Source: Ceratodon purpureus
Lineage: Eukaryota; Streptophyta; Bryopsida; Pseudoditrichales; Ditrichaceae
Assembly (NCBI GenBank): GCA_014871385.1
Contig: CM026422.1
Coordinates: forward strand, 23,863,014-23,927,013
Reading direction: 5' to 3'
Length of the DNA: 64,000 nt
The notes below the pieces were generated by a model. It had not been told where the DNA came from. It saw only the letters and a list, made by a program, of their open reading frames with translations, and searched no databases. Below, one piece after another: positions 10,692-28,144 of this stretch. A program made the translations under genes and the position numbers. Every line of letters begins with the position of its first letter. Position 1 is the stretch's first letter.

Positions 10692-10699
10692 GATGAAAG
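10692..10699. repeat. 8-bp target-site duplication, left copy (giant hAT)
   Basis: GATGAAAG immediately precedes the element's first base and recurs exactly at 28137-28144. An 8-bp duplication is the hallmark of hAT insertion. Confidence 0.85.
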
Positions 10700-10790
10700 C
10701 ATGGTTGTCATAATGGACCGACCGTCCGTTAGTCCGTTAGTCCGTCATGGTGACAAGACAGACCCCCGTGTCCGTCACATAAGGGCGTTG
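10700..10790 (+). repeat. Left inverted end and subterminal repeats of giant hAT
   Basis: The inverted end (10700-10723) is followed by repeats of CCGTCCGT, TTAGTCCGT and GTCCGTCA up to about 10780. Subterminal short repeats are typical hAT transposase-binding sites. The right end has matching GGACGG-type repeats at 28035-28120. Confidence 0.75.
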
Positions 10791-10837
10791 ACCAGTTGAC
10801 TCACGGTAAGGGTAAAACAAATTTACCTAGCGCTGAA

Positions 10838-11150
10838 TTAGTGCGGGCGCGAGCGCGATTACGGGCGCGAGCCGGACGACGGGCGCGAGCGTCCGCGCGA
10901 ACGCGATGTCACGGGCGCGTGCTGGAGTGCGCGAGAGCGAGGGCGCGTGCGTCGTTCCGGCCGCGCGCGTGCGCCTGCGAACGGGCGCGAGCGTCGCTGC
11001 GGGCGCGATCCAGTTGACGGTCGCGAGCACACTTATCGGGCGCGGTCATGTGGGCGCGAGCCTGGATCGGGCGCGTGCATTCGGGCGAGTGCGCTGCATC
11101 GGGCGCCGGCGGTCGGGCGCGAGCGCTGCAGGTTAGTAGGGAAAGAGCGA
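10838..11150 (+). repeat. GC-rich array, GGGCGCGAGC cores (array 1)
   Basis: Some 15 degenerate cores of GGGCGCGAGC, most spaced 14 or 18 bp with variable filler. Extremely CpG-rich. It lies 140 bp inside the left end and downstream of the kinase gene. Arg/Ala-rich ORFs across it are artefacts of the repeat. Confidence 0.85.
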
Positions 11151-11324
11151 CATCGGGCAAAATCATAAATGACAAGAGAGGGCATGTATTTCAGAAGAGG
11201 GCAATTGGGAAGTGCAATGTTTATTGAAAAGTTTTGCAAAATTGTGGCAGTAAACCACTTACAAAAAATGTCCCCTCTTATGGAGAACTGAGAATATCAC
11301 ATTGTTGTCACTACTTGCCTACTT

Positions 11325-12893
11325 CTAAATATGTTTGCGATAACAACACTCTGGGATTTGGAAATTGTAGGGAGGGGCTGTTAGAGTAGCGTGGACCAAA
11401 CGCAAGGTGGAGCGGCTCTTGGGATCGGGATTTGTGAGCTCCTTCAACGCCACCGCAAATCTAGCCTTCCCCGCTGTATCCTTGAAAAGGTCGAAGTCGT
11501 CCTCGTCCTTCCAAATCATATTTGCTACCACTCCAACCGAGTACGCATCGGCAGCCTGCGTATATAGATGTCTCCTCCTTACAGTTTCATATGAGGTCTC
11601 CGAATTTGGCTTACCATAAGTGTACCACAACTCCGGAGCCACAAAACTACCACGTTCCTTGAAGGCTTCCGTACGCGCCTCATCACTTGGGTAACCGTAC
11701 CTTGAAGGAGTTGTCTCACACACCCGACTTGCAAGGCCCCAGTCGCATACTCCAATGTAAACCTCGCTCACTTTATCCTCTGGGAAGTGAAGCAAGACAT
11801 TTCCCGGGGAGATGTCATTATGCTGCAAATACCCCTTATGGACCCGGTCCATAATACAGATGAGTGCCCAAGCTAGCTTGGCCCTATGGGTGCGGAAGGC
11901 CTTAACACGGTCACGTGTTTCCATGGGCATATCGATCTGCTTGTGGATGTTACGGTTCTGAGTACCCTCACCGATATTTGAATTGAACTTGTGCAGAAAA
12001 TTCTGCAGGCAATCCCCATTCCACCAAAGCGTGTAGGCTTCCATCGTCCAGTCATTGACCGCAAAAAACTTAATAACGCCGGGATGGTCAATTCTGCAAA
12101 CCATGGCTTCTATTGATGTCTCGTGCCGCTTCTTGGTCTCGTCAGGAGCCTTGGACGTCTTCCCCGCAAAGACACAAGTCTCAGGTATGGTTTGCATGCC
12201 AACAATACGTAATTTTCGGACTTTACCATAACCGCCTTCCTTTGTGCCTGACAGCGGAACCAACTTGACCCCTCTCGGAACTCCAACCACTGCTCCCCAC
12301 AAGTACTTCTCCATTGCGCTTTTCAGTCCAGCTTCAAGCCATGGCCTCGCCCTCGTCTTATTATTCGAGAATCTCGCGCACGAATCCTGGACATATTTGA
12401 GCTTCTCTATCTCCTCCTTCTGCGCCCGCGAGTAGCCCTCCTTTGGCTTCTTGTTGACACACTCAAAGACATGCACAATGTTCGTAGTGTTTGTTGTTAT
12501 TTGTTGCTCCATCCACTTAGGGAAATGAAAGTAATGAATACAATCATTATATCTCTCGGAAAGGTCCAGCTTCTTCCACAAATACTCTTCCAAATGGGTC
12601 TTCAAGTCCTTAATTCTGGTCTCCCCCTTCTCAACGTACGTGCGGGTAATCATCTCCCGTTTCCGACATCCGTACCACTCCAATGCTAGCTCTCTAACGA
12701 ATTCCTGGTACCGAGGAGGTGGGTAGTCCGGGTCCCTCTCACTCGCCGACTTCCGGTTCTTCTTTCCCGATGAGCTTGATGACGGGTTTGAGCCTGTAAC
12801 GGTCGGTGCTGTGGAGGTTGCCATCACATCCTCTACAGGAGCATCAAGATCTACGTAGGCAGGGCGTTTCCCGGATCCGCGAGAGACCGACAT
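11325..12893 (-). CDS. Protein-kinase-like cargo protein of giant hAT
   Basis: 522 residues from ATG 12891-12893; an extension to 12947 would begin at GTG and is unlikely. The N-terminus is Ser/Lys-rich (about residues 1-55), followed by a helical region of about 150 residues I do not recognise. The kinase domain spans about 205-490: Gly loop GTKEGGYGKV (216-225), beta-3 Lys in VFAGKTS (about K245), catalytic loop HNDISPGN (D360, N365), CDWG in place of DFG (D384) and APE (419-421). The residues needed for phosphotransfer are therefore present. It is intron-free. A TATA box at 13069-13075 and a GC array lie upstream. Its role may be in controlling transposition or the host, but the substrate is unknown. 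Kinase genes are not standard hAT cargo. Confidence 0.85.
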   Translation of the reverse strand: MSVSRGSGKRPAYVDLDAPVEDVMATSTAPTVTGSNPSSSSSGKKNRKSASERDPDYPPPRYQEFVRELALEWYGCRKREMITRTYVEKGETRIKDLKTHLEEYLWKKLDLSERYNDCIHYFHFPKWMEQQITTNTTNIVHVFECVNKKPKEGYSRAQKEEIEKLKYVQDSCARFSNNKTRARPWLEAGLKSAMEKYLWGAVVGVPRGVKLVPLSGTKEGGYGKVRKLRIVGMQTIPETCVFAGKTSKAPDETKKRHETSIEAMVCRIDHPGVIKFFAVNDWTMEAYTLWWNGDCLQNFLHKFNSNIGEGTQNRNIHKQIDMPMETRDRVKAFRTHRAKLAWALICIMDRVHKGYLQHNDISPGNVLLHFPEDKVSEVYIGVCDWGLASRVCETTPSRYGYPSDEARTEAFKERGSFVAPELWYTYGKPNSETSYETVRRRHLYTQAADAYSVGVVANMIWKDEDDFDLFKDTAGKARFAVALKELTNPDPKSRSTLRLVHATLTAPPYNFQIPECCYRKHI

Positions 12894-13068
12894 AGTTGGA
12901 ATAATGAACTGGACACACAATAAAAAAAAATAAAAGATCCCCCCCACCCAATCTGGTTGCTCCCACTTCCTGCAGTTCCAAGCAGAGCACGTGGAGTCAC
13001 GGGCTAGGACAAGGAGCCACCTGGAAGAGGAGACTTTGAAAAGTAGAAAATAAGGGTTAAGGGGCGCC

Positions 13069-13076
13069 TTTTATGC
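13069..13076 (-). promoter_or_regulatory. TATA box of the kinase gene
   Basis: Minus strand reads GCATAAAAGGCG, about 180 bp upstream of the ATG and directly at the edge of GC array 2. The same arrangement precedes the other cargo genes. Confidence 0.55.
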
Positions 13077-13079
13077 TCC

Positions 13080-13445
13080 CCTCGGCTGTTCGCGCCCGTA
13101 AGCGCGTACACGCGCGTGCACAGGGCCTCCACACGCGCCCGTCCGCATGCGCCCGTCTGCACGCGCCCGTCCAACGCGTTCGCGCGGGGGACTGCCCGCG
13201 CCCGTGCCCGTGTGTGCGCGCCCGTGCCCACGTGCGCGCCCGTCAGCCCACATCGGGCGCGCCCGACGCCGCAGGCGCCCGTGCCCGAGTGCTCGCGCCC
13301 GTACCCCTGCGCGCGCCAGTTATCTGTACGCGCGAGCACGCTGTACGCGCCCGTGACCGTGCACGCGCCTGTCCCCGCGCACGCGCCCGACTCCGTGCAC
13401 TCGCCCGCCTTCCTGTACGCGCCCGTCCTAGTGCACGCGCCCAGA
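13080..13445 (-). repeat. GC-rich array 2, upstream of the kinase gene
   Basis: Plus strand reads GCGCCCGT repeated with variable filler. Its core is inverted relative to the other arrays. It lies immediately upstream of the kinase TATA box. Confidence 0.85.
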
Positions 13446-13782
13446 TATGCAGCGTTACATACACTGTACAGGTTCGGTTACGGTATACTCGTATATTGAA
13501 CAGAATACCAAAAAAATTCACTGCGAAATTACTCAATGGAGATATATTAACCGCATTTAGCGCACAAAAATTAATACAGAGCACAACCATACAATTCCTT
13601 CGAGTGTGAGATAATGAACTAGGTTGACTCTAAGTAACAGTATAAGCCTACGTAATAAGAAGGTGCTACCAAAAAAAAAAAAAAAAACATTAAGAATAAC
13701 ATAGTATTTTTTTTGGTTTTTAGCCGGTAGATTGTATGTTTAGATTTACTGCTACTTCATGCGCTAAAAAGGTGACCACAGT

Positions 13783-16700
13783 CTAGACTCTCCTTGCTTT
13801 GCGGGGCTTCTTCTTGCGTGAAGATTGTCTTTTCCGAGCCACAGTGGGCCCCAATTCGTGCCGGATTATCACATCTTCGTCATCTGGCGCCTCATCGCAA
13901 TCGGGGTCTTCCTCCTCTGAGTGCTCGTTGTCACCTTCATCCTCAGGAGCTCCGACCACTGGAGCTTGTACCTCTCCTTCCACCTCCGATGTAAGATTGC
14001 GCACTTGCACGGAAACTTCACCCGTATTGCCATCTCTGGCACTTACTAGGCGCTTCATAGGCCTCTCCTTTCCGGAATTACCGATGGCTGTGATGCCATC
14101 CTCACTGATTATGCGTGTGCGAACAACCCCAGTTCCAGAAGAAGGCCCCCCTTCAGTGTACCCTGTATAGAATGGAAGGGGATCAGGTCCAGTTCTTTTG
14201 CTTGACTTTCGTGTTCCTCCGCGGGGTTCTTGTGATGGTGGTTTCCTAACAACCTTGGCTCTGGACTTCTTCGCACCACGTTGGGCCACATTCTGTACGG
14301 CTTCGTCTATAGCTGGCGCCACGGGGACTAGCTTGGCGGTGGAGGCACCACGCCGACTACCACCAGCTCGATTGAGTGGAGGCCTCGCCGCTGCTGATGA
14401 TCTAAGGAGTCGAGCTACTTTTGCGCCCATTGAACTTGTGGGCCTCCGAGCCAGGCCTCCATCCACGATTGTATCTGGTTCGATACCCCCCGTACCAGTG
14501 GGTTGCGATGGAGCCACACTCTTTGCGGGGATTGCGTGCACGGTCCTTCTCTCGTGAGCAGGAGGAATCTCTTGAAACAAGCTTGAGTCGCCTTGTGCCG
14601 GAACGGTTCCCCAGTTGCCCTCCCCACTAACGAGGCCGGTCCAATGAGGTCCATCTACAGCCCGTCCATGACTTCCATCACCCCCTTCGTCACTGTCCTC
14701 ATCATCATCGCCAGCATGGATATCGTTGCCAAGATGGTCCTCGCTGGATGAATCATCTGCAACCCCGTCATTGTTCTCAGGATTGATTTGGACTGGAATA
14801 GCATCTCTTTCGTCACGAGCGCCTCTTCCTTGTGCATTAGCCGCTTCATCAAATACTGGGAGTGTGGGTAATTCGTCTCCATAGATGTTCATGTCCGGGT
14901 TTCCCTGGTTATATTCTGGTTCATTGTTGAAGTCGTACGCATCACCGTTATCATCATGGTTGTTGCGGTCACGCGGATTGTTGCGGTTAGCGTCACCGCG
15001 TCCGTTGCCATTACCGTCGTTTTGCCCATTCGTGTTAACGTCGACGTTATCATGTCCCCAGACATCATCATCCCCACTGCCTGCATGGTCAACTGGTATG
15101 TAATGATCGTCGTCATCTCCTTCCTCTTCGCTTGGATCTCTCTCCGGATCCGACTCCTCTGACCATGCATTGTTCTCGTACCATCTGAGGGGGTTGGGCT
15201 TTGGGCGTTCGCGGAGGAGTCTGCTATTCGTATAAATGTACACCAAGGCCTCAGACTTCTCTAACCCCAGGCGGTTGCGTACCTTGTTGTGGACAAACGA
15301 GTACATGCTCCAATTCCGTTCACACGATGAGGCGGAGCAGACCTGAGATAAAATGCGCTTCGCAATGACTGCCAATGGTCCCCCTCCAATCCTCTGCCAC
15401 CATTGATGGGGTTCCAGATTCAAACCTCTGATATCGATGGTCACTTCGGGGCTGTAAGGGCCACGTCCCTCGTCGAACTCGATCATCTCTTTCATAAGAT
15501 CGCCAAATGGAATTCCCATTTGGCCACCCACCTGACGAAACACCCGATTGAGAGCCGCCTTTGCTTCTCCTATGACTTGTAAGCCCTTATGCGTTCTAAC
15601 CCAAGGGTTCAAGAGCGCCGCGGCATAATGAAGATCGGTATGCATCATGTCCCATCTACGGTCGAACCGCAGCTCCATCCTTGTTGCCATGACAGGTGGG
15701 AAAAAGCAAGGGGATCCTCGGAGATTGTACACGTGATCCTTTAGGTTGCTCATTGTAATCCATGCCTTGCCCATTGCCGGCTGGCTTCCATCGAAGGTTC
15801 TGAGAGCTACTAGGGCTGGTTTCACTAGGTGCGTGAAGTTGTCACACTGATGCCAGAACCCATCGTCACGAATTGTTTGACGCACTACGCTTGCGCGTGC
15901 ATGATTACGCACCCCCTCGGTTTGGTTGAATAAACCGTCGACATACTCGTACCACTCCTGTGCCATGACCACTTGCTCCAAAGCAAATTTAACCTCCATA
16001 AGGCGCGCTATCATGAGATAGTTACAAGCGAATCTGGTTTCAGCGGGAACCACCAATGACAACTTCGGTTCAAATTTGCGGAAAAGGGCCATGGGAACAT
16101 GATGTCTCCGAATGTAATGACACACGTGTTTAGCCTTGGCGACCAAATCCTTCACAAAGACTTCCTTGCCCCAGTCCTCCATAAGAAGATCTAGAATATG
16201 GGCACAACAGCCCTGCTTGTACATGTGAGGAAACTCCTCTAGGATATTATCCATGGCGCCAAGCATGTTGGCTGCATTGTCCGTGCAAATCTGGACAACA
16301 TTCTGAGGGCCAATTTCTCGAATATATTTCTTCATCTCCCCGGCAATATATCCCATTGACTTCTTCTCGCCAGTCGTATCAACAGACCCAAGAAATACAT
16401 TGCCTGCCGGACATACTAGCATGACATTCATCAACGGTCGGCGATTCACATTATCCCAGCCATCGGAGCATATGGTAGCCCCGTATAACTCGGTCGAGGT
16501 TTTCGTACGTTCATCAATCTTTGCCTTGATTAACTTCTTTTTTTCCTTGATGTGCGTTGTTCGCATCGCGTCATAGGAAGGAGGACCGTAGTTAAATCCG
16601 GCAGCCCCGGTTGTGCTCACCGCCTTAATAAATGCTGGGTGCTTGGCCACGTTGAATGCGACGTTGGCTTCGTAAAAGAAGGATGACCACAACATGTCCA

Positions 16701-17229
16701 GCTCCTTCCGCTTGGCGATCTGGAGTGCTTCACTCATGTCATGTTGCCGCAAGCTCCTAGTGGTATTCGAACCGGCCCTACTAGGTGCAACACTGGAGAC
16801 ATTTCGGTCCTCTTCGGTATCATTATACGAGGGTTCGGATCCACCGTACAGAGTGCCGTGTGTGGAAGCACTGGATGTTCCACGTTGAACTGAAGCGGTG
16901 AACGTTGGCCTGATACCATCCACCTCCTCCTGTGTCAAAGGGCCGGGAATCTTTCCAGCGCAAAACTGAAACTTCCTCTTCACTACGGTAGGTGCCTTTT
17001 GGCAAACCCTCGAGAGATTGGACTGGTCCCAACCATAATGCTGAAAGCACCTATGCCTCACGTACGAAAACTTGGTCCTGCAATACACACATTGGGCTAC
17101 CTTATGTGACAGTGACCCTTCCTGGAGCTTGACCGAAAACCATGGTGCCCACTCTCTCGTACCGAGTCTTGGAATGGCTCTAGCCGGAGCAACCACTTCA
17201 ACCGGTTCAACCGCTTCATCCGGATCCAT
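13783..17229 (-). CDS. hAT-superfamily transposase (DUF659 type), intact
   Basis: 1148 residues, ATG at 17227-17229, uninterrupted. An N-terminal BED-like zinc finger has C47, C50, H59 and H64. The DUF659/RNase-H-like core has catalytic D256 (ICSDGWD) and D317 (QICTDNAAN), the CxxAH-type site near C342/H344, and ETRF (397-400). The hAT C-terminal dimerisation region is at about 608-672, with SSCERNWS carrying the third acidic residue E637 and RNRLG. About 470 further residues are acidic, Asn/Asp-rich and disordered, ending in a basic RKRQSSRKKKPRK stretch that resembles a nuclear signal. That tail makes it longer than usual (600-800). It would excise and insert the element via its inverted ends. 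A TATA box at 17473-17480 and GC array 3 lie upstream. Confidence 0.92.
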   Translation of the reverse strand: MDPDEAVEPVEVVAPARAIPRLGTREWAPWFSVKLQEGSLSHKVAQCVYCRTKFSYVRHRCFQHYGWDQSNLSRVCQKAPTVVKRKFQFCAGKIPGPLTQEEVDGIRPTFTASVQRGTSSASTHGTLYGGSEPSYNDTEEDRNVSSVAPSRAGSNTTRSLRQHDMSEALQIAKRKELDMLWSSFFYEANVAFNVAKHPAFIKAVSTTGAAGFNYGPPSYDAMRTTHIKEKKKLIKAKIDERTKTSTELYGATICSDGWDNVNRRPLMNVMLVCPAGNVFLGSVDTTGEKKSMGYIAGEMKKYIREIGPQNVVQICTDNAANMLGAMDNILEEFPHMYKQGCCAHILDLLMEDWGKEVFVKDLVAKAKHVCHYIRRHHVPMALFRKFEPKLSLVVPAETRFACNYLMIARLMEVKFALEQVVMAQEWYEYVDGLFNQTEGVRNHARASVVRQTIRDDGFWHQCDNFTHLVKPALVALRTFDGSQPAMGKAWITMSNLKDHVYNLRGSPCFFPPVMATRMELRFDRRWDMMHTDLHYAAALLNPWVRTHKGLQVIGEAKAALNRVFRQVGGQMGIPFGDLMKEMIEFDEGRGPYSPEVTIDIRGLNLEPHQWWQRIGGGPLAVIAKRILSQVCSASSCERNWSMYSFVHNKVRNRLGLEKSEALVYIYTNSRLLRERPKPNPLRWYENNAWSEESDPERDPSEEEGDDDDHYIPVDHAGSGDDDVWGHDNVDVNTNGQNDGNGNGRGDANRNNPRDRNNHDDNGDAYDFNNEPEYNQGNPDMNIYGDELPTLPVFDEAANAQGRGARDERDAIPVQINPENNDGVADDSSSEDHLGNDIHAGDDDEDSDEGGDGSHGRAVDGPHWTGLVSGEGNWGTVPAQGDSSLFQEIPPAHERRTVHAIPAKSVAPSQPTGTGGIEPDTIVDGGLARRPTSSMGAKVARLLRSSAAARPPLNRAGGSRRGASTAKLVPVAPAIDEAVQNVAQRGAKKSRAKVVRKPPSQEPRGGTRKSSKRTGPDPLPFYTGYTEGGPSSGTGVVRTRIISEDGITAIGNSGKERPMKRLVSARDGNTGEVSVQVRNLTSEVEGEVQAPVVGAPEDEGDNEHSEEEDPDCDEAPDDEDVIIRHELGPTVARKRQSSRKKKPRKARRV

Positions 17230-17472
17230 AGTGAATGATTAGGGAAGTATCGGGACTAAAAGGACCAGTAGTACCAAAAGATTATTATCTGAATAACTTA
17301 GTGTGTCTGAAAAGTGCTTGACACATTGATTTATGGAGAGAAGAATTTTTACATTCCCCCCACCCAAACCAAGTGTCTCCCCAAGCTAACAGTTTCAAGC
17401 AAGGAGCCCTCAAGGAGACCCAGGACATGAAGCACGCAAGGAGGTAAGGTGGATGTCAAATCAAGGGGGCAG

Positions 17473-17480
17473 TTTATATA
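17473..17480 (-). promoter_or_regulatory. TATA box of the hAT transposase gene
   Basis: Minus strand reads GTATATAAACTGCC, about 245 bp upstream of the ATG and just downstream of the GC array on that strand. Confidence 0.6.
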
Positions 17481-17494
17481 CTGCCGCCCTCGAC

Positions 17495-17822
17495 CGGGCG
17501 AGTACTGTCCGGACGGGCGCGACCGAACGGGCGCGCGCGCACCAGAAGATCGGGCGCGCTCCGAGGCGAACGGGCGGGCGCAGGTGGGTGCGCGCGATTG
17601 AAGGCCGCGTGGCGGATAGCGCGCGCGGTGGAAGACGGGCGGGGGCGGGGGCGGGCGCATGCGGGCGCGAGCGCTGGATCGCGAAGCGGGCGGGCGCGGG
17701 CGCGCACGGGCGGAGAGCGGCGGGCGAATGCCGGCGCGGGCGCGCACGGGCGGAGAGCGGCGGGCGAATGCAGGCGCGGGCGCGCACGGGCGGTCGGGTG
17801 CGGGCGCGATCAAACGGCCGAG
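17495..17822 (+). repeat. GC-rich array 3, upstream of the transposase
   Basis: Repeated GGGCGCG cores. Within it a block of about 50 bp (CGGGCGCGCACGGGCGGAG...) is duplicated in tandem near 17695-17790. CpG-dense. Confidence 0.85.
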
Positions 17823-18154
17823 ATCGATTTGGCCACCTCAATTCAACGAGAAGAAGTAACAACGAGAGGGAAAAATGAATAAAATTTAAATAAATCAAAG
17901 TGTGTAAACTACATACACGTGCACATCTACATAAAAAGGAATCCTATTTAAGTGAAAAGATTGAGAAACATGAGAGTGCGGGAGGACTACCCACCCCATT
18001 CACACATGTCTAAGAACCGGACCAGGCTGTCATCTCGCCCTTTCATGTTTCTGCCCACCCACTGGAAGGTAAGTCGTTTTAAGCTAACCTCAGGGAGTGT
18101 TAACTTAAAATATGGGATAAATTTTACTAGTTACTGCATTAATCCAGTTGAAAC
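17823..18154. other. Spacer between GC arrays 3 and 4
   Basis: About 330 bp of ordinary composition. It holds no recognised gene or repeat. Confidence 0.5.
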
Positions 18155-18410
18155 CCCGAGCGCGCGCGCAGGCGGCGTGGGGCGCGAGCAGGCGCGCGCG
18201 AACGGGTGGGCGCGAGCAGGGCGAGCGCACGTCGGGGAGGGCGCGCGCGCGCGTCGAACAAGCAGGCGCGCGCGCGTACTTGCGGGCGCGGTTGCGAGTG
18301 TGCGCGCGCGCGCGTGGGCAGGTTCAGTGGGTCGACTGCGGACGCCACCGCGCGGGTGCTTGCAGGCGCGTTCGGACGCGCGCGATCCAACAGGGCGCGC
18401 GCAATGAAGT
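18155..18410 (+). repeat. GC-rich array 4, left flank of the satellite
   Basis: Dense GCGCGCG runs with GGGCGCG cores. No gene directly follows; the satellite begins shortly after. Confidence 0.8.
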
Positions 18411-18584
18411 TTAAAAGTCGGAAGTTCAAAAAAAAATAAAAAATAAAGCTTCAGGGAGAGAATGGACTACACTGAAATACCATACATTAGTATGGGAGAT
18501 TGGAGTACCCAAAAGAAAAAAAAAGAAAAAAAAAGTAAACGAAAAGGCATTCAAATTTATAAAATGAAGAAAAAAATAAAAAAA

Positions 18585-21500
18585 CAAATTAAATAGCATA
18601 GGAGTATTGAATAAAAATAAGGCGGGAGGATAGACTAGAGGTGGAATTATAAAAATGAACAAACAAAATGAGAGAAGGAATTAAATAGAAGCGTAGTGTT
18701 CAACGAAGAGGGAAAAAAAAAAAAAAGGAATTAAAGAGCGTAGGAGTATTGAATAAAAATAAGGCGGGAGCATAGACTAGAGGTGGAATTATAAAAATGA
18801 ACAAACAAAATGAGAGAAGGAATTAAATAGAAGCGTGGTGTTCAACGAAGGGGGGAAAAAAAAAAAAGGAATTAAAGAGCGTAGGAGTATTGAATAAAAA
18901 TAAGGCGGGAGGATAGACTAGAGGTGGAATTATAAAAATGAACAAACAAAATGAGAGAAGGAATTAAATAGAAGCGTGGTGTTCAACGAAGGGGGGAAAA
19001 AAAAAAAGGAATTAAAGAGCGTAGGAGTATTGAATAAAAAAAAGGCGGGAGGATAGACTAGAGGTGGAATTATAAAAATGAACAAACAAAATGAGAGAAG
19101 GAATTAAATAGAAGCGTGGTGTTCAACGAAGGGGGAAAAAAAAAAAAGAATTAAAGAGCCTAGGAGTATTGAATAAAAATAAGGCGGGAGGATAGACTAG
19201 AGGTGGAATTATAAAAATGAACAAACAAAATGAGAGAAGGAATTAAATAGAAGCGTGGTGTTCAACGAAGGGGGGGAAAAAAAAAAAGGAATTAAAGAGC
19301 GTAGGAGTATTGAATAAAAATAAGGCGGGAGGATAGACTAGAGGTGGAATTATAAAAATGAACAAACAAAATGAGAGAAGGAATTAAATAGAAGCGTGGT
19401 GTTCAACGAAGGGGGGGAAAAAAAAAAAAGGAATTAAAGAGCGTAGGAGTATTGAATAAAAAAAAGGCGGGAGCATAGACTAGAGGTGGAATTATAAAAA
19501 TGAACAAACAAAATGAGAGAAGGAATTAAATAGAAGCGTGGTGTTCAACGAAGGGGGGAAAAAAAAAAAAGAATTAAAGAGCCTAGGAGTATTGAATAAA
19601 AATAAGGCGGGAGGATAGACTAGAGGTGGAATTATAAAAATGAACAAACAAAATGAGAGAAGGAATTAAATAGAAGCGTGGTGTTCAACGAAGGGGGAAA
19701 AAAAAAAAAGAATTAAAGAGCCTAGGAGTATTGAATAAAAATAAGGCGGGAGGATAGACTAGAGGTGGAATTATAAAAATGAACAAACAAAATGAGAGAA
19801 GGAATTAAATAGAAGCCTGGTGTTCAACGAAGGGGGGAAAAAAAAAAAAGAATTAAAGAGCCTAGGAGTATTGAATAAAAATAAGGCGGGAGGATAGACT
19901 AGAGGTGGAATTATAAAAATGAACAAACAAAATGAGAGAAGGAATTAAATAGAAGCGTGGTGTTCAACGAAGGGGGAGAAAAAAAAAAGAATTAAAGAGC
20001 CTAGGAGTATTGAATAAAAATAAGGCGGGAGGATAGACTAGAGGTGGAATTATAAAAATGAACAAACAAAATGAGAGAAGGAATTAAATAGAAGCGTGGT
20101 GTTCAACGAAGGGGGGGAAAAAAAAAAAAGGAATTAAAGAGCGTAGGAGTATTGAATAAAAAAAAGGCGGGAGCATAGACTAGAGGTGGAATTATAAAAA
20201 TGAACAAACAAAATGAGAGAAGGAATTAAATAGAAGCGTGGTGTTCAACGAAGGGGGGGAAAAAAAAAAAAGGAATTAAAGAGCCTAGGAGTATTGAATA
20301 AAAATAAGGCGGGAGCATAGACTAGAGGTGGAATTATAAAAATGAACAAACAAAATGAGAGAAGGAATTAAATAGAAGCGTGGTGTTCAACGAAGGGGGG
20401 AAAAAAAAAAAAGGAATTAAAGAGCGTAGGAGTATTGAATAAAAATAAGGCGGGAGGATAGACTAGAGGTGGAATTATAAAAATGAACAAACAAAATGAG
20501 AGAAGGAATTAAATAGAAGCGTGGTGTTCAACGAAGGGGGGAAAAAAAAAAAGGAATTAAAGAGCGTAGGAGTATTGAATAAAAAAAAGGCGGGAGGATA
20601 GACTAGAGGTGGAATTATAAAAATGAACAAACAAAATGAGAGAAGGAATTAAATAGAATCGTGGTGTTCAACGAAGGGGGAAAAAAAAAAAAGAATTAAA
20701 GAGCCTAGGAGTATTGAATAAAAATAAGGCGGGAGGATAGACTAGAGGTGGAATTATAAAAATGAACAAACAAAATGAGAGAAGGAATTAAATAGAAGCG
20801 TGGTGTTCAACGAAGGGGGGGAAAAAAAAAAAGGAATTAAAGAGCCTAGGAGTATTGAATAAAAATAAGGCGGGAGGATAGACTAGAGGTGGAATTATAA
20901 AAATGAACAAACAAAATGAGAGAAGGAATTAAATAGAAGCGTGGTGTTCAACGAAGGGGGGGAAAAAAAAAAAAGGAATTAAAGAGCGTAGGAGTATTGA
21001 ATAAAAAAAAGGCGGGAGCATAGACTAGAGGTGGAATTATAAAAATGAACAAACAAAATGAGAGAAGGAATTAAATAGAAGCGTGGTGTTCAACGAAGGG
21101 GGGAAAAAAAAAAAAGAATTAAAGAGCCTAGGAGTATTGAATAAAAATAAGGCGGGAGGATAGACTAGAGGTGGAATTATAAAAATGAACAAACAAAATG
21201 AGAGAAGGAATTAAATAGAAGCGTGGTGTTCAACGAAGGGGGAGAAAAAAAAAAGAATTAAAGAGCCTAGGAGTATTGAATAAAAATAAGGCGGGAGGAT
21301 AGACTAGAGGTGGAATTATAAAAATGAACAAACAAAATGAGAGAAGGAATTAAATAGAAGCGTGGTGTTCAACGAAGGGGGGGAAAAAAAAAAAAGGAAT
21401 TAAAGAGCGTAGGAGTATTGAATAAAAAAAAGGCGGGAGCATAGACTACAGGTGGAATTATAAAAATGAACAAACAAAATGAGAGAAGGAATTAAATAGA

Positions 21501-22520
21501 AGCCTGGTGTTCAACGAAGGGGGGAAAAAAAAAAAAGAATTAAAGAGCCTAGGAGTATTGAATAAAAATAAGGCGGGAGGATAGACTAGAGGTGGAATTA
21601 TAAAAATGAACAAACAAAATGAGAGAAGGAATTAAATAGAAGCGTGGTGTTCAACGAAGGGGGGGAAAAAAAAAAAGGAATTAAAGAGCGTAGGAGTATT
21701 GAATAAAAATAAGGCGGGAGCATAGACTAGAGGTGGAATTATAAAAATGAACAAACAAAATGAGAGAAGGAATTAAATAGAAGCGTGGTGTTCAACGAAG
21801 GGGGGGAAAAAAAAAAAAGGAATTAAAGAGCCTAGGAGTATTGAATAAAAATAAGGCGGGAGCATAGACTAGAGGTGGAATTATAAAAATGAACAAACAA
21901 AATGAGAGAAGGAATTAAATAGAAGCGTGGTGTTCAACGAAGGGGGGAAAAAAAAAAAAAAGGAATTAAAGAGCGTAGGAGTATTGAATAAAAATAAGGC
22001 GGGAGGATAGACTAGAGGTGGAATTATAAAAATGAACAAACAAAATGAGAGAAGGAATTAAATAGAAGCGTGGTGTTCAACGAAGGGGGGGAAAAAAAAA
22101 AAGGAATTAAAGAGCGTAGGAGTATTGAATAAAAATAAGGCGGGAGCATAGACTAGAGGTGGAATTATAAAAATGAACAAACAAAATGAGAGAAGGAATT
22201 AAATAGAAGCGTGGTGTTTAACGAAGGGGGAAAAATAAAATAAAAAATTAAAGAGCGTAGGAGTATTGAATAAAAATAAGGCGGGAGGATAGACTAGAGG
22301 TGGAATTATAAAAATGAACAAACGAAATGAGAGAAGGAATTAAATAGAAGCGTGGTGTTCAACGAAGGGGAAAAAAAATATAAAACAAATTACAGAGCGT
22401 AGAAGTATTGAATAAAAATAAGGCGGGAAGATGGGGGAGAGGTGGAATTATAAAATTGAACAAACGAAATGAGAGAAGGAATTAAATAAAAGCGTAGTAT
22501 TCAACGAAGGGGGAAAAAAA
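18585..22520. repeat. Satellite array: about 28 units of about 140 bp
   Basis: Units start with AATTAAAGAGC(G/C)TAGGAG at 18729, 18870, 19010, 19149, 19290, 19432, 19572, 19711, 19851, 19990 and so on to 22388, spaced 139-144. Each has GGCGGGAG(G/C)ATAGAC, ATTATAAAAATG, CGTGGTGTTCAACG, then a run of five to seven G followed by ten to fourteen A. Central units differ by few bases. The edge units (first, last two) are more diverged, as expected for unequal exchange. No coding potential. Confidence 0.97.
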
Positions 22521-22800
22521 AAAACAGTGGGAAAAAAAAAAAATAGTGGATACATATCAGCTGAACTCAGGCGCTTAGAGGATCTTCATGTGACTCTGGG
22601 TCGACATGAAGATTTGCTACCTTTAGTATATTATAAAAATGAACAGACAAAATGAGATTAGGAGTTAAATAAAAACGTAGTGTTCAAAGAAGGGGAAAAA
22701 AAACAATTAAAAATTTAGAGAGTGTGGGATTATTAAATAAAAACAAAGGGATAGGATGGGAGAGTGGTGGAATCATAAAATTTATTTGAGTGATGTTGTT
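22521..22800. repeat. Decayed satellite edge
   Basis: Recognisable fragments of the 140-bp unit (ATTATAAAAATGAACAGAC, GTAGTGTTCAAAGAAGG) interrupted by an unrelated stretch at about 22545-22625. Confidence 0.7.
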
Positions 22801-22804
22801 GGAG

Positions 22805-23405
22805 TGCTCGACCGCGTGCAAAACGGGCGCCCGCATTGATGGGCGCGAGCGTGTACGGGCGCGTGCAAATGGAACGAGGGAGTTCGGGGGGAGAAATTAG
22901 TTCCATGATATGGTTGCAGTGCGCGCGCGCGAGTATTGACGGGCGCGCGCAATCGGGCGCGCGCGAAATTGGGCGCGAACGGAATGCGGGGGACATTGTG
23001 GGGGAGGAAGAGATTCAGAATCACGCGACCGTGCGCGCGCGGTTGGTTTGACGGGCGCGATCAGGACGCGCGCGCGCGTACGGGCGCGTGCAAATGGAAA
23101 AGAGAGTTTGGGGAGAAAAATTAGTCCCCCACCCAGGTTGCAGTGCTCGCGCGCGTGCAATGTCGGGCGCGCGCGAAATCGGGCGGGCGCATGCGGAATC
23201 GGGCGCGAGCGAAACGACGGAGACACCGTCGGGTGTTCCACATTTCAGTATCCGTTCGCGCGCTGTTGGTGCGACGGGCGCGAGCAGTTCGCGCGCGCGC
23301 ACGTGCGGGCGTAATCCTGGTTTTATTCTCGCTGGGGCAGGTTTGCGCGCGCGCGAGTATGCACACTACGGGCGCGCGCAAACGCGCGCGACCATGCGGG
23401 CGGAA
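22805..23405 (+). repeat. GC-rich array 5, right flank of the satellite
   Basis: About 600 bp of GGGCGCGCGC/GGGCGCGAGC cores. Within it a block of about 200 bp (GTGCAAATGGAA...GGGGAGAAA...GGTTGCAGTGC) is repeated at about 22860-22935 and 23085-23160. Confidence 0.85.
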
Positions 23406-23821
23406 TCAGAGTTCAAATCCACGTAACATAAAATTCAGTCCATAAGTTAAATACACTTACAATAACTTAAGTTCTCTTAGCGTGACTTAAATCCACTGAC
23501 CATATTAAACATTTTGGTGTGCAACAGAGATATTTATACACTTATCATACGATGGAAGGAGATGAGACAACGAGCAGAATGAATAACATGATTGGCAATC
23601 AAAAAAAGGGAGGCCAATGTATTATGAAGGGAGCATAAAAGCGTCTTGAGAATCACGACAATGATTTACAAAAGCAAATTATCATCCATTGTTTGAGTTT
23701 AACAAACATTAAACATGTGAATGTAATCCCAAACCTATCCATACCCCTATGCCATCTACATGTATTTATATTCCGATATCTTTTTACAGAATGTGGACTT
23801 CACTCATGGATCTCCACGACG
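23406..23821. other. Spacer downstream of the RING-like ORF
   Basis: AT-rich, about 415 bp; probably the 3' region of the minus-strand gene. No feature recognised. Confidence 0.45.
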
Positions 23822-24799
23822 TCACGTGCCCGGTGCGGAGGAACTCGATCCACCCTCATCGTGTCGAGCACGAGAGGTACCTGCTGCACTACTTTCTGCC
23901 CCATCGTTGGCAATGAGTTTCCGCTTGGCAGAACGGGTTCTCTTCGCTATGCCATCTCCTGAGAGCATTGCTTCCATGAAGTTGTTGTTGCGCATCCGAC
24001 GGAGCACTGTTACGACATCCGGAGCCACTTCCGCACATAGGAAATCCACGGCTTGATTCTTGAACAATATATCCCATTCAGATTCCGCGGTTTGTACTTC
24101 CTCAGCGATCCGGAAATCCTCTGGAGTCATGTCGTGCAACTCCTTGATCTGATCCGCAACCAACTCCCCTTTGGAATTCCACTTAAATCCAAGAGGATGG
24201 CGGCCGTACTGGAATGTACGAGTTTGAATATCCCAGTGCCCATGTAGCACTTGGTAGAAGAAATTCCTCCTTCCCTCCAGTTCCTCCTCCGTCCCGCCCT
24301 TGATGAGTTCGTGGCAGATCCGTACAATCTCCGCAGGTTTCTGGTCCCACCTCCACTGATCGCTCATTTGTTTAACATAGGACTGGTGCATTCCCATAAG
24401 CCAATTCCAAATCAAGTCTTCACCCCACTTGTCCGGAAAGTCAAGAGTATTTTCCTTATTTAGCTCCCAATGCGGTGGCATCCAATTCACTAGGCCGAAT
24501 TGCTCATAAAAACGCTTGTGTAAGGGGGCCTTACATACTGCACACTTCCGACGTATCAAGGCATGGGAAATCAAGCATTGTGGATGATACATGCATTGAC
24601 AGGATCCAAATTGCCAGCCCCCCTCTGGCCCAAATACATTGCAACAAACTGGACACTCGGTTCCATCCAACACATACTTCGCTGGATTGGGCCAGAGCAA
24701 GCTTGGCTTTGTATTTTTAGGGATCTTCTCATTGGATATGGCGGTCTTGTACTCCCACTCCAACTGCGTCCAATCTATTGCTAACCAATCATCGGTAGG
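23822..24799 (-). CDS. RING-like zinc-binding cargo ORF (probably 3' part of the upstream gene)
   Basis: Frame open from 24802 with no ATG before the zinc motif; the first apparent start at 24763 is TTG. This suggests a downstream exon or shifted frame of the adjoining ORF (24781-26376). Counting from 24763, C37-C40, C55-C57-H60-C63, H67 and C74-C77 form a RING/treble-clef pattern (CPVC...CQCMYHPQC...CAVC). RING folds are usually E3 ubiquitin-ligase modules; that role is inferred. The remainder has Trp-rich helices and ends in a Ser-rich, basic tail. A TGACAG splice-acceptor-like site sits at 24800-24805. Confidence 0.6.
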   Translation of the reverse strand, partial: PTDDWLAIDWTQLEWEYKTAISNEKIPKNTKPSLLWPNPAKYVLDGTECPVCCNVFGPEGGWQFGSCQCMYHPQCLISHALIRRKCAVCKAPLHKRFYEQFGLVNWMPPHWELNKENTLDFPDKWGEDLIWNWLMGMHQSYVKQMSDQWRWDQKPAEIVRICHELIKGGTEEELEGRRNFFYQVLHGHWDIQTRTFQYGRHPLGFKWNSKGELVADQIKELHDMTPEDFRIAEEVQTAESEWDILFKNQAVDFLCAEVAPDVVTVLRRMRNNNFMEAMLSGDGIAKRTRSAKRKLIANDGAESSAAGTSRARHDEGGSSSSAPGT

Positions 24800-26376
24800 C
24801 TGTCAGGGAACATTTCATCTGGATCAACCCACGAGGTAAGTCCGAAATCTCTCTTGGAGTTAAGCTGGAGGTAACCGCGGTCAATCCTCTCGAACTCATC
24901 GCGCATCTGTCTGAAACGGTCGACGTTCATGATGCATGCAATCTTCCATTGGTAGTACTGTCTGCTCATCTCGATCAGATACTTTCTGAGCATCCCGTTG
25001 GTAGCTTGCAATTCGGAGACAGTGGGTACCGATGGCTGTTGAAATCCCAAAGAGTCCTCCGTCTCTTGAGAATCTACGAACATGATTTGCCGCTGAGTGG
25101 GGTGCATCACTTGACTTGATGACGCGAATGGAGTGATTGGCTTACGGGGAACTCGGACCGGGGTATCTTCCAGGAGACCGTGCGTGGCCGATTCAATGAT
25201 GGCATTCACGTCTTCCTCGTTCATTCCAGGGCTACCAGGGATTGGAGCTTGGCTTGCCTCGGGTACGTAAGTCGGAGTCTTCGCAGATCTAAGTTGCGAA
25301 ATCTCTTCATTCTGCTTCCGTATAATCTCATTCATCCTATCAGCTTCTTCGTACAAGTTCTGGATAGTCTTCTCCATCTCAGAAATTATTGCATTTTTTC
25401 CTTCCAGCTCCTTCTGCAATGCATCGCCTTGCAGGCCCTGGGCATCAGCGGCGGCTATTGTAGCCTCCAACTCATCTGCAAACCCAGTGTCATCATCTTC
25501 CATTACATTGCTCGGGCCCGCAATCTGTGGATTCAGTACATGAGGAGCTACATCAACATTGCTCGGGCCCGCAATCTGTGGAACTAATATAGGAGGAGCA
25601 ACATCAACATTGCTCGGGCCCCCGACGATTGCTGGAGGAGCCTGATGAGGAATACCCGGTCCAGTAGGATTTGCAGGCGGTGCACGATTCCTCGTCGACA
25701 AACAGGCAGCTAGCACAGGATCCTTCTTTTTTAACCGTGTGATTCTAGCACTAGTCGCTCCTCTTGTCTGTGACTGAGGGGGACGGTCTACCGTACCATC
25801 AGAATCATTATCCTCCCCTGAGTCACTCCATTCAACAGGCGCTTGATCCTCAGGATCATCCAAGTATGCCCAGTCCACACCTAGAAATCTTAGGACCCCT
25901 GTAGGTATCGCCATCTCATGTGGACGCCGCTGGACGCTAGGAGTCAACCGTATGGTCCTCCAATCCACCTGCCTATGAAGCACTACCTCGGCATATACCA
26001 TTCTACAAATAAAGAGCGGAACCTCATTCCTCTCGTTCATCGCCTGGTTGTATAGGACCTGCCACACCTCCAAACACCGCCTCCCGAACTGACGGTTCTT
26101 GCAATATTTCATGTTTGCCTTGTTTGAAGTACGATTGTTATTATGACGGTGCAACGGGAATAACTTTCCAATGTGGCACCATTCAATGAATTGTTCACAC
26201 GTTGCTAGAGTCCACGGTTGCGATGCAGCTTCCCACCCTCTGAATGCCAGCTTTGCTGGATTCAATAAGACGTGGACCCTCTTATGTTGGACGTTTCCAT
26301 GCCTGGCCCGTCCCGCATCCTTTTGCTTTTTCCTCTGCTCTGCCGCCGTGAGCTGGTTTGGTTCTTGCCGTTCCAT
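24781..26376 (-). CDS. Coiled-coil cargo protein of giant hAT, unknown function
   Basis: 531 residues from ATG 26374-26376; an extension to 26421 would use TTG. The N-terminal 180 residues are globular, basic and rich in Trp/Cys/His. An acidic linker and a short repeat follow, with three occurrences of GPSNVDVAP or GPSNV separated by PQIA. Then comes a clear coiled coil (EGKNAIISEMEKTIQNLYEE and on) and a helical C-terminus. The stop at 24781-24783 overlaps the opening of the RING-like frame by about 20 bp, so the two may be one protein joined by splicing or separated by a one-base shift. No family recognised. A TATA box (26655-26662) and a GC array lie upstream. Confidence 0.7.
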   Translation of the reverse strand: MERQEPNQLTAAEQRKKQKDAGRARHGNVQHKRVHVLLNPAKLAFRGWEAASQPWTLATCEQFIEWCHIGKLFPLHRHNNNRTSNKANMKYCKNRQFGRRCLEVWQVLYNQAMNERNEVPLFICRMVYAEVVLHRQVDWRTIRLTPSVQRRPHEMAIPTGVLRFLGVDWAYLDDPEDQAPVEWSDSGEDNDSDGTVDRPPQSQTRGATSARITRLKKKDPVLAACLSTRNRAPPANPTGPGIPHQAPPAIVGGPSNVDVAPPILVPQIAGPSNVDVAPHVLNPQIAGPSNVMEDDDTGFADELEATIAAADAQGLQGDALQKELEGKNAIISEMEKTIQNLYEEADRMNEIIRKQNEEISQLRSAKTPTYVPEASQAPIPGSPGMNEEDVNAIIESATHGLLEDTPVRVPRKPITPFASSSQVMHPTQRQIMFVDSQETEDSLGFQQPSVPTVSELQATNGMLRKYLIEMSRQYYQWKIACIMNVDRFRQMRDEFERIDRGYLQLNSKRDFGLTSWVDPDEMFPDSLPMIG

Positions 26377-26654
26377 GTCTGCTCGAGGTAGATCGTTCTT
26401 CGAAGTCTTCCGAAGGTGCAAAATTAAAAGCCTACGACTATCTCAGAACCTCAATCACATTTACAAATTATAAACATTTACAAAATTCTCAAATGTAATA
26501 CACAGACACCATAGAGTTCTGGAGAACAAAAACAAGGACACGTGTCAGAGTGCTGGGACCCACCTGAGTACCACGCAATAAGCTACCCGGGGGCTGTTGA
26601 AGGCAAGGTGCTCAAAGGGGGGGGGGGAGTGCAAAATGAGGTGGGAAATCGCCC

Positions 26655-26662
26655 TTTTATAG
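26655..26662 (-). promoter_or_regulatory. TATA box of the coiled-coil/RING unit
   Basis: Minus strand reads GACTATAAAAGGG at the edge of GC array 6. Between it and the ATG is GGGCTGTTGAAGGCAA (plus strand, about 26590), shared with the 27.6-kb gene leader. Confidence 0.6.
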
Positions 26663-27035
26663 TCACGGGCGCCAGGGAACGGGCGCGAACAACCTGCTAC
26701 GGGCGCGAGCGGAAACCCAACGGGCGCGCGCGGGCACCGACGGCGGGGTTTCGGCCGTGTATCCGTCCACGCCCGCGCGGATATCAACGCGCGCGAGCGG
26801 TTCAGTGGCGGGTATATGACGGGCGCGAGCGGGTTTTACCGCGCGCGAGCGGGTACCGACCCGGTCTTTGTCGGGCGCGCGCGGGCGTCGTCCGGGTACC
26901 GAAGGGGCGCGCGCGCGGACGTCGACGTGGGCGCGCGGATATTATTCGGGCGCGATCCGAATTGCACGGGCGCGACGGTCGGGCGCCAACGCTGAATGGA
27001 CGGGCGCGAGCACTGGGCCAGGACGGGCGCCACCA
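26663..27035 (+). repeat. GC-rich array 6, upstream of the coiled-coil gene
   Basis: GGGCGCGAGC-type cores with variable 4-11 bp filler over about 370 bp, abutting the TATA box. Confidence 0.85.
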
Positions 27036-27146
27036 CAACCTAGAACACTGTTAAAAATCAGATTAACCAAAGAGAACTTGCAAATTCAGAGTTAAAAAAA
27101 AATACTTTATTTATTTTGAAAATGTATCACTTCATTGTAATGTCGA

Positions 27147-27551
27147 TTACAGTGCCATGCACTCTAGGTACCGGTCCTCTAGGTCTTTCAAGTGCGTCTC
27201 GAAATGGTTCGTTTGAGCACTAGAGACAATATTGGGGACACAAAGTATTGCCATCTCCTTCTTCAGTTCTTTGATGAGATCGCCAATCTCACAGTCAAGT
27301 TCTTCGACAGTCGCTTGAGTTGCCAACTGCTCTTCAGTGGTTGGAGGCAGAGGGCGTCCATTCTCTGCGTAGGCCACCAATTTGTCACGGCGAGAGATCC
27401 AATCCTCGAAGAACTCAATCAGTTGACGGAGTCGCTCCAGCTTTGACCAAATAACTGTGTCCGTTCGCTGTGCAGTGCTCGGTGGAGTGGCACCATCCGT
27501 TAAACTCATAATGGACTTGATTTGTTGGCAATTGCAGGCGTTGGAATTCAT
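27147..27551 (-). CDS. Small coiled-coil cargo protein of giant hAT
   Basis: 134 residues from ATG 27549-27551; the longer frame to 27599 begins with TTG. Mostly helical and acidic, with heptad-like stretches (KLERLRQLIEFFEDWISRR; ELDCEIGDLIKELKKEMAIL) and few Cys (near residues 7, 9, mid and end). No family recognised. It has its own TATA box (27673-27680) and GC array, which argues that it is a real gene despite its size. It is the first gene from the right end. Coiled coils might pair with the neighbouring coiled-coil protein; this is inference. Confidence 0.65.
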   Translation of the reverse strand: MNSNACNCQQIKSIMSLTDGATPPSTAQRTDTVIWSKLERLRQLIEFFEDWISRRDKLVAYAENGRPLPPTTEEQLATQATVEELDCEIGDLIKELKKEMAILCVPNIVSSAQTNHFETHLKDLEDRYLECMAL

Positions 27552-27584
27552 GTTGGACGGTACAGCGAATGTTGAGAAACCCAC

Positions 27585-27640
27585 CGTAGCACTAAGCAAT
27601 CAGCTACCCTTGGGCTGTTGAAGGCAAAATGCACAAAGTG
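27585..27640 (-). promoter_or_regulatory. Duplicated leader module
   Basis: Plus strand AAGCAATCAGCTACCC then GGGCTGTTGAAGGCAA closely matches 26572-26608, the leader of the coiled-coil gene. Both modules lie between TATA and ATG, so two cargo genes share 5'-leader sequence. Confidence 0.6.
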
Positions 27641-27672
27641 AGGGGGTGCGAAATCAGTGGAGGAGGGTGGCA

Positions 27673-27680
27673 ATTTATAC
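27673..27680 (-). promoter_or_regulatory. TATA box of the small coiled-coil gene
   Basis: Minus strand reads GAGTATAAATTGCC, 120 bp upstream of the ATG, at the edge of GC array 7. Confidence 0.6.
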
Positions 27681-27684
27681 TCAC

Positions 27685-27985
27685 GGGGCCGACAGTGTGG
27701 GCGCGAGCAGGTTGGGCGCGCGCAGGGTGCTACGGGCGCGAGCACGTTACGGGCGCGAGCGACCGTGATCGGGCGAGGGTAATCGGGCGCGAGCACTGTG
27801 CGCGCGCGAGACAGACGACGGGCGCGATCACAGCGAGCGCGCGACGGGCGCGGGCGACCCTGATCGGGCGAGGGTAATCGGGCGCGATCACCGCGCGCGC
27901 GCGAGACTGACGACGGGCGCGAACAACCACATATGACCGGCGCGAACAGGCGCAAAGACGCGCGCGGACACGACGACGGGCTCCA
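27685..27985 (+). repeat. GC-rich array 7, near the right end
   Basis: GGGCGCGAGC and GGGCGCGATCAC cores. A roughly 90-bp sub-block (GACCGTGATCGGGCGAGGG...) is repeated at about 27761 and 27856. Confidence 0.85.
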
Positions 27986-28029
27986 CCCATGGTAAACAGT
28001 AGTAAAGTGTGAGGACAGTAATTTTGCTC

Positions 28030-28136
28030 GCGGTCGGGAGCCCGTCCGATAAGCGTCCGTCCGATAACCGTCCGTCACGTTCGTCACGTGACTACACGAC
28101 AATTTTTTGGCCCGTCCGTCCATTATGACAACTCTG
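28030..28136 (-). repeat. Right inverted end and subterminal repeats of giant hAT
   Basis: GTCCGTCC/CCGTCCG-type repeats followed by GTCCATTATGACAACTCTG ending at 28136, the inverse of the left end. Confidence 0.8.
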
Positions 28137-28144
28137 GATGAAAG
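28137..28144. repeat. 8-bp target-site duplication, right copy (giant hAT)
   Basis: GATGAAAG, identical to 10692-10699. Confidence 0.85.

Follow-up and report, generated by a model that had tools for sequence, protein, structure and literature searches.

A 17,437-base hAT element of Ceratodon purpureus with kinase and coiled-coil/RING genes and oriented motif arrays, one copy of a large family

The element and its genes

The window analysed here, a 64-kb stretch of Ceratodon purpureus contig CM026422.1, contains a hAT-type transposable element that spans positions 10700-28136 (17,437 bases). It carries a protein kinase gene, a hAT transposase gene and a gene for a coiled-coil/RING protein in this fixed order, all on the minus strand in the window copy, and its spacers hold arrays of the motif GGGCGCG. 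The features are listed below by window position and strand.

10692..10699, unstranded: left copy of the target-site duplication GATGAAAG, read directly from the sequence
10700..10718, plus strand: left (kinase-side) terminal inverted repeat CATGGTTGTCATAATGGAC, from the sequence and the genome count of its core
10719..11300, plus strand: left subterminal region, in which GGGCGCG occurs 11 times between 10700 and 11300, each time on the plus strand
11325..12893, minus strand: protein kinase gene, 522 amino acids, single open frame (Pfam PF00069)
12901..13780, minus strand: motif array in the spacer upstream of the kinase gene (12 of 13 motifs on the minus strand), with a TATA-like ATAAAA about 181 bases before the kinase ATG
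13783..17229, minus strand: hAT transposase gene, 1148 amino acids, single open frame (PF04937, 5.2e-35; PF05699, 9.7e-6)
17241..18570, plus strand: motif array in the spacer upstream of the transposase gene (14 of 14 motifs on the plus strand), with a TATA-like box about 250 bases before the ATG
18573..22524, unstranded: internal A-rich satellite with a 142-bp unit in about 28 copies, between the transposase and coiled-coil/RING genes
22531..23800, plus strand: motif array in the spacer downstream of the coiled-coil/RING gene (11 of 11 motifs on the plus strand)
23822..26376, minus strand: coiled-coil/RING gene, about 850 amino acids in single-frame copies, its frame broken near 24.8 kb in the window copy
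26451..28117, plus strand: right subterminal region, upstream of the coiled-coil/RING gene (19 of 19 motifs on the plus strand), with a TATA-like box about 285 bases before the ATG
28118..28136, minus strand: right terminal inverted repeat CAGAGTTGTCATAATGGAC, from the sequence and the genome count of its core
28137..28144, unstranded: right copy of the target-site duplication GATGAAAG, read directly from the sequence

On the plus strand of the window, GATGAAAG was found at the two flanking positions and nowhere else. The 15-bp core of the ends, GTTGTCATAATGGAC, lies at 10704 (plus) and 28118 (minus), with no further occurrence in the window on either strand. The genome searched comprised 362,488,568 bases in 151 contigs; the window lies on contig C2, and contig C6 (110.5 Mb) makes up 30% of the total. 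The exact core was counted at 364 places in this genome (181 forward and 183 reverse) versus 0 and 1 for a reversed control, which excludes a chance origin of the ends. In the 30 end pairs read, short inverted repeats were present at both ends, consisting of CATGG, CAGAG or CAGGG followed by the core. The hAT end consensus has A at position 2 and G at position 5. Terminal inverted repeats of hAT elements measure 5-27 bp according to PMC12506042. Positions 10700-28136 are hereby confirmed as a genuine hAT element and as one copy of a large family.

The transposase frame is open across 1151 codons and matched the Pfam families DUF659 (PF04937) and hAT dimerisation (PF05699) at the E-values listed above. 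The window protein was aligned with 21 of the 29 relatives found (31-98% identity to it), and D256, D317, C341, H344, R399, E637 and W640 were invariant in 22 of 22 rows; we take D256, D317 and E637 to be the D/D/E of the transposase, and C341 and H344 its CxxH. At the N-terminus a C-x2-C...H...C segment was present in 17 of the 22 rows, the other five lacking this stretch wholly or partly, and the window protein had no match to Pfam zf-BED at an E-value of 1. Of 1580 candidates for genome matches, the best 40 were scored, and 37 of these were free of stops.

The kinase of the window matched PF00069 at 1.4e-7 with 31.6 bits, just under the gathering cut-off of 31.7, and all 21 rows of the kinase alignment matched this family at an E-value of 0.1 or less (best 2.5e-15). 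That alignment was built from the window protein and 20 of the 35 relatives found (25-70% identity to it), and it has the Lys/Glu, H-x-D-x4-N and D-x-G catalytic residues of a protein kinase, K245, E262, H358, D360, N365, D384 and G386 being invariant in every row. The best 83 of 1370 genome candidates were scored, giving 82 full-length matches, 71 of them stop-free, plus two pieces of one more. Membership in FunK1 (PF17667), the fungal protein kinases, was considered and rejected: the likeness lies in being a divergent kinase, and the match was weak and limited to three of the 21 rows (best 0.0093), whereas the window protein had none at an E-value of 0.1 and a longer kinase frame none at 1.

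The third gene had been read as a coiled-coil open reading frame (ORF; 24781-26442) and a RING ORF (23822-24802), which overlap in different frames. These are one gene, because the relative P0065 (850 amino acids, 96% identical) spans both. The frame is broken near codon 531 in the window copy; among eight other copies, four have a single frame, three have a common break near codon 425, and one is broken several times. The copies with the common break (L042, L090 and L092) lie on three chromosomes, and copies with broken cargo therefore seem to have multiplied too. The best 53 of 1675 genome candidates were scored, each covering at least 844 of the 850 residues, and 40 were stop-free. In an alignment of P0065 with eight of the other 14 relatives found (37-42% identity to P0065), seven of the eight ligand columns of a RING zinc finger were invariant and the eighth was C or H in all nine rows. 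The family zf-RING_2 was matched by eight of the nine rows at an E-value of 0.1 or less (0.18 for the window RING ORF alone), and the nine-row RING profile matched RING structures, the best at 1.3e-6. For the conserved N-terminal part, no Pfam family suggesting its identity was found, and the scan gave no positions for other members. The product is predicted to be a ubiquitin-ligase-like (E3) protein.

The original prediction for this locus had claimed an 8-bp duplication, inverted ends and an intact hAT transposase, all of which were confirmed. Its count of at least three further cargo ORFs reduces to two genes, the coiled-coil and RING ORFs being a single frame-broken gene, and, as that gene shows, this copy is not free of lesions.

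Relatives found by protein search numbered 29 for the transposase, 35 for the kinase and 15 for the coiled-coil/RING protein; almost all of them are on short contigs. Five transposase relatives carry the names Scenedesmus and Closterium, and one kinase relative is labelled as coming from a bacterial metagenome-assembled genome (MAG). In prokaryote genomes 44 pattern matches gave a single relative; its contig, 3.6 kb long, belongs to a MAG labelled Halorubrum and is most likely contamination. A viral origin was considered and rejected, since scans of viral contigs gave 27, 21 and 33 pattern matches for the transposase, kinase and coiled-coil/RING alignments, respectively, and none was a relative.

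Copies of the family and evidence of insertion

End pairing was based on the first 100 of the 364 core places in contig order, a set that looks complete for contigs C1-C5 and the first 10.96 Mb of C6. Inward-facing pairs numbered 36 and accounted for 72 of these places; 27 of the pairs span 13.1-17.5 kb, and nine span 26.5-51.2 kb, as nested insertions would be expected to do. Flanks were read for 30 pairs, the six omitted all being at least 26.9 kb. The 8-bp duplications were identical in 23 of the 30, agreed at seven of eight positions in three more and were unmatched in two, and two pairs from adjacent elements had exchanged flanks, a pattern that an inversion between them would leave. Diagnostic end bases identified one kinase-side and one right-side end in 28 of the 30 pairs; each of the remaining two had one end unclassed.

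Insertion is also evident from empty sites. When the flanks of the copy at C2:1813096-1828308 were joined (180 bases, with one copy of the duplication), they matched seven empty sites at 180 of 180 positions. Scoring covered 40 of the 192 candidates; each reached at least 97%, and 39 did so at full length. The one empty site that was inspected lies inside a frame of 955 codons that carries Retrotrans_gag and Ty3 capsid domains, and this copy therefore inserted into a Ty3-type retrotransposon repeat. Listed genome matches to the element genes are 95-99% identical, those on C6 included, and together with the exact empty sites this indicates recent mobility. Recent mobility had been part of the original prediction and is borne out, on these grounds instead of the stop-free ORFs from which it had been argued: the coiled-coil/RING gene is broken here, and a stop was found in four of the seven further copies in which the N-terminal part of the kinase was examined.

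The three genes recur as a unit. The lists of gene matches run from the best downwards (40 of 1580 for the transposase, 83 of 1370 for the kinase and 53 of 1675 for the coiled-coil/RING gene), so that they favour intact copies and undercount the family. On the same strand, a listed kinase lies 0.87-0.93 kb downstream of 33 of the 40 listed transposases, and a listed coiled-coil/RING gene accompanies 23 of the 40; all three genes are present at 20 loci. Among the listed matches on C1-C5 and one on C6, the distance to an exact end is fixed for 28 of 29 kinases (606-639 bases), 17 of 17 coiled-coil/RING genes (1732-1913 bases) and 17 of 18 transposases (3065-3104 bases); the two exceptions are 18.5 and 21.8 kb away. 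Thus the large multi-gene hAT unit that had been proposed recurs with its order, strand and spacing at many sites, other copies with both ends exist, and the kinase and RING genes are carried along with the transposase; cargo genes present as host genes alone, the contrary case, were not what the scored matches gave.

Such a unit might be mimicked by two mobile elements lying side by side or nested, or by faulty assembly. The nine long pair spans have the size that nested insertions would have, and two contigs start at or near an element. This explanation is contradicted by the fixed architecture, which is repeated at many sites with different duplications, and we regard it as highly improbable.

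Several observations concern single copies. Two elements at C2:9760846-9863792 (L030-L033), separated by about 52 kb, have swapped their target-site flanks: ATTATTCC and GGAATAAT are reverse complements and the other pair agrees at seven of eight positions, which fits inversion by recombination between the elements. The copy at the start of C2 (C2:1-14257) and that at C2:310356 have a common flank and the duplication CTGAGGTG, and contig C11 starts almost exactly at an element; these cases may reflect segmental duplication or an assembly error. On C6 (L091-L094) two older copies were found, with 78-94% protein identity by piece, mostly broken, one kinase frame still being open. Three loci (L012, L027 and L034) have the same 15-bp core with CAGGG ends and probably represent related or non-autonomous families; reading inward from the cores, 8.0 kb at L034 and 7.2 kb at L027 gave no relatives of the three proteins at an E-value of 1e-3. 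The satellite is rich in A and G on the plus strand, and the gap that hosts it measures 6.6 kb in the window copy versus 3.3-6.4 kb in 23 others, so that the length of the satellite array probably varies. Outside the element, at 29093-30549 of the window, two ORFs similar by eye probably arose by tandem duplication.

Motif arrays, selection and interpretation

The window element contains 68 copies of GGGCGCG, at 9-18 per kb across all five non-coding spacers; its three genes and its satellite have none, and neither do the 46.6 kb of window that flank it. In 300 shuffles of each spacer the motif never occurred more than four times. Its orientation is nearly uniform, four spacers having all their 55 motifs on the plus strand and the spacer upstream of the kinase 12 of its 13 on the minus strand, which puts 67 of 68 in the prevailing direction of their array, and the extended motif is about CGGGCGCGAGC. 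The same pattern was seen in other copies, where left ends have 9-12 motifs on the plus strand and none on the minus strand (10 of 10) and right ends have 16-20 on the plus strand and one on the minus strand (each of eight). It is also kept upstream of the kinase (12 copies) and upstream of the transposase (seven copies), the exceptions being a single motif within one transposase region of the 12 and lower counts in two older copies. Spacer CpG is undepleted (observed/expected 1.35-1.60), and the flanks have 0.59 and 0.67. A TATA-like hexamer adjoining an array precedes the ATG of each gene by 181-285 bases, and from this arrangement we infer that the upstream arrays and TATA-like boxes may serve as promoters.

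Selection was assessed by comparing the unique changes among copies with same-type changes re-placed at random within the gene, CpG context being respected. An excess of synonymous changes was obtained for the transposase (P=0.001 for six sequences chosen by their ends; 0 of 2000 for all 13), the kinase (P=0.004, six sequences) and the coiled-coil/RING gene (P=0.0145, nine sequences), and no such excess appeared in a spacer control read as coding (P=0.81). Amino-acid changes were below expectation for the transposase (P=0.008) and the kinase (P=0.0325). Pairwise ratios of nonsynonymous to synonymous change (pN/pS) were 0.41 for the transposase (eight copies, the best-scoring ones), 0.27 and 0.43 for the N-terminal and C-terminal parts of the kinase, and 0.65 for the coiled-coil/RING gene.

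It is likely that these data describe a high-copy, recently mobile hAT cut-and-paste family in which the kinase, transposase and coiled-coil/RING genes form a fixed unit, the kinase and RING protein regulating the element or its host. The copy number is high, with at least 82 full-length kinase copies and 364 end cores. The ends, 8-bp duplications and empty sites show hAT-type insertion, and cut-and-paste would be carried out by the element's own transposase. Its three genes are each one open frame in intact copies, with an upstream array and TATA-like box, and the GGGCGCGAGC arrays in the spacers are most likely binding sites of a protein that the element encodes, be it the transposase or the coiled-coil/RING protein. 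Regulation by the kinase and RING protein might consist in switching transposase activity, degrading a host silencing factor or countering silencing at the arrays, the last of these being modelled on the VANC proteins that serve VANDAL elements. This arrangement suggests that a normally minimal type of transposon acquired its own regulatory machinery.

A number of observations weigh against this interpretation. Many copies are damaged, the frames open in copies chosen by their ends being four of five for the kinase, two of five for the transposase and one of four for the coiled-coil/RING gene. Partners are lacking for 28 of the 100 listed end cores, two of the 30 end pairs have unrelated flanks, and six of the 53 listed coiled-coil/RING genes have no listed kinase or transposase within 40 kb. 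Three of 30 fetched core loci (L012, L027 and L034) gave no DNA match to the element, and some of the 364 cores are therefore not copies of it. P0065, the relative closest to the window element, has no Pfam family at an E-value of 0.1. The arrays may have arisen incidentally through tandem duplication. As to selection, the signal for the cargo genes appears modest: amino-acid changes in the coiled-coil/RING gene are not clearly depleted (P=0.079), the C-terminal half of the kinase showed no synonymous excess in 17 sequences (P=0.26; L036, in which part of the region is missing, was left out), and all of these P values are indications instead of strict probabilities, the copies compared being related.

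Under one alternative, the element is an ordinary hAT transposon with two captured host genes as passengers, whose proteins are useless for transposition and were spread by hitch-hiking. The cargo frames are indeed broken in a fair share of copies, and the modest selection signal, absent for one kinase subset, is in keeping with it. On the other side, both cargo genes recur at the same distances from the ends, each as one open frame with an upstream array, and the relatives at 25-70% identity retain the kinase catalytic residues. In addition, no scored match fell below 97% for the kinase (82 full-length, from the best 83 of 1370) or below 95% for the coiled-coil/RING gene (the best 53 of 1675), and thus no diverged host counterpart was seen among the scored matches. 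We consider the passenger explanation unlikely.

The arrays and extra proteins might, alternatively, serve DNA transposition only, the motifs being transposase-binding sites and the kinase and RING protein timing the transposase, with no anti-silencing. A precedent exists in Hermes, whose hAT transposase contacts the transposon end through several BED domains according to PMC10368747. Arrays at both ends and the N-terminal C-x2-C...H...C segment of the transposase in 17 of 22 rows speak for this alternative. Against it, arrays are present in internal spacers as well, kilobases from the ends, where end recognition should not need them. This is a possibility to be taken seriously, though we incline to doubt it.

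The motif arrays yield a directly testable prediction, namely the binding target of an element protein, and in this family the self-regulation of large cut-and-paste elements and their escape from silencing can be studied in a plant.

Comparison with known systems

hAT elements are known as small transposons, usually with one gene, and a kinase and a RING protein kept in a fixed, high-copy unit challenge that picture. With the hAT superfamily (Ac/Ds, Hermes; DUF659-type) the family shares 8-bp duplications, short CA...G ends, DUF659 and dimerisation domains, and the D/D/E and CxxH residues; it differs in its size, mostly 13-17 kb, in its two further conserved genes, in the arrays in all spacers and in the satellite. 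Ac measures 4.6 kb according to PMC3260210. The 14-kb fungal element ToxhAT resembles the window element in size and in the hAT name, but, according to PMC12506042, which proposes the name ToxTA for it, it has a TA duplication and is likely of the Tc1/mariner type and non-autonomous, and it is therefore no hAT precedent.

Starships, the giant transposons of fungi, are likewise large DNA elements with genes beyond that for their transposase, and PMC12506042 describes them as larger, with a DUF3435 tyrosine recombinase and variable cargo, whereas the family described here has a hAT transposase and a recurring gene set. No DUF3435 captain was present among the Pfam matches, at an E-value of 1, of the four long window ORFs. 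A description of an element like the present one was not found in searches of the open-access literature, which does not establish its absence from print.

VANDALs are Mutator-like elements (MULEs), and the window transposase is of the hAT type by its Pfam matches, not of the MULE type. In other respects the VANDAL/VANC system offers a likeness, being described in PMC5735166 and PMC10398659 as a multi-gene DNA transposon with a dense, same-orientation motif in non-coding DNA, as was found here. The target motifs of Arabidopsis VANC21 are mainly non-coding, dense and in the same orientation, and often lie within tandem repeats (PMC5735166), and the VANDAL motif given there, YAGTATTAY, is different from GGGCGCGAGC of the window element. 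The element is no VANDAL and works like VANDAL/VANC at most by analogy. On this analogy we raise, tentatively and as something we would sooner question than accept, the idea that a hAT lineage independently evolved a self-encoded regulatory and anti-silencing apparatus, consisting of a coiled-coil/RING E3 ligase and a kinase acting through spacer arrays, in convergence with VANDAL/VANC. Were this true, such an apparatus would let a cut-and-paste element of very large size multiply to high copy number in a haploid-dominant plant.

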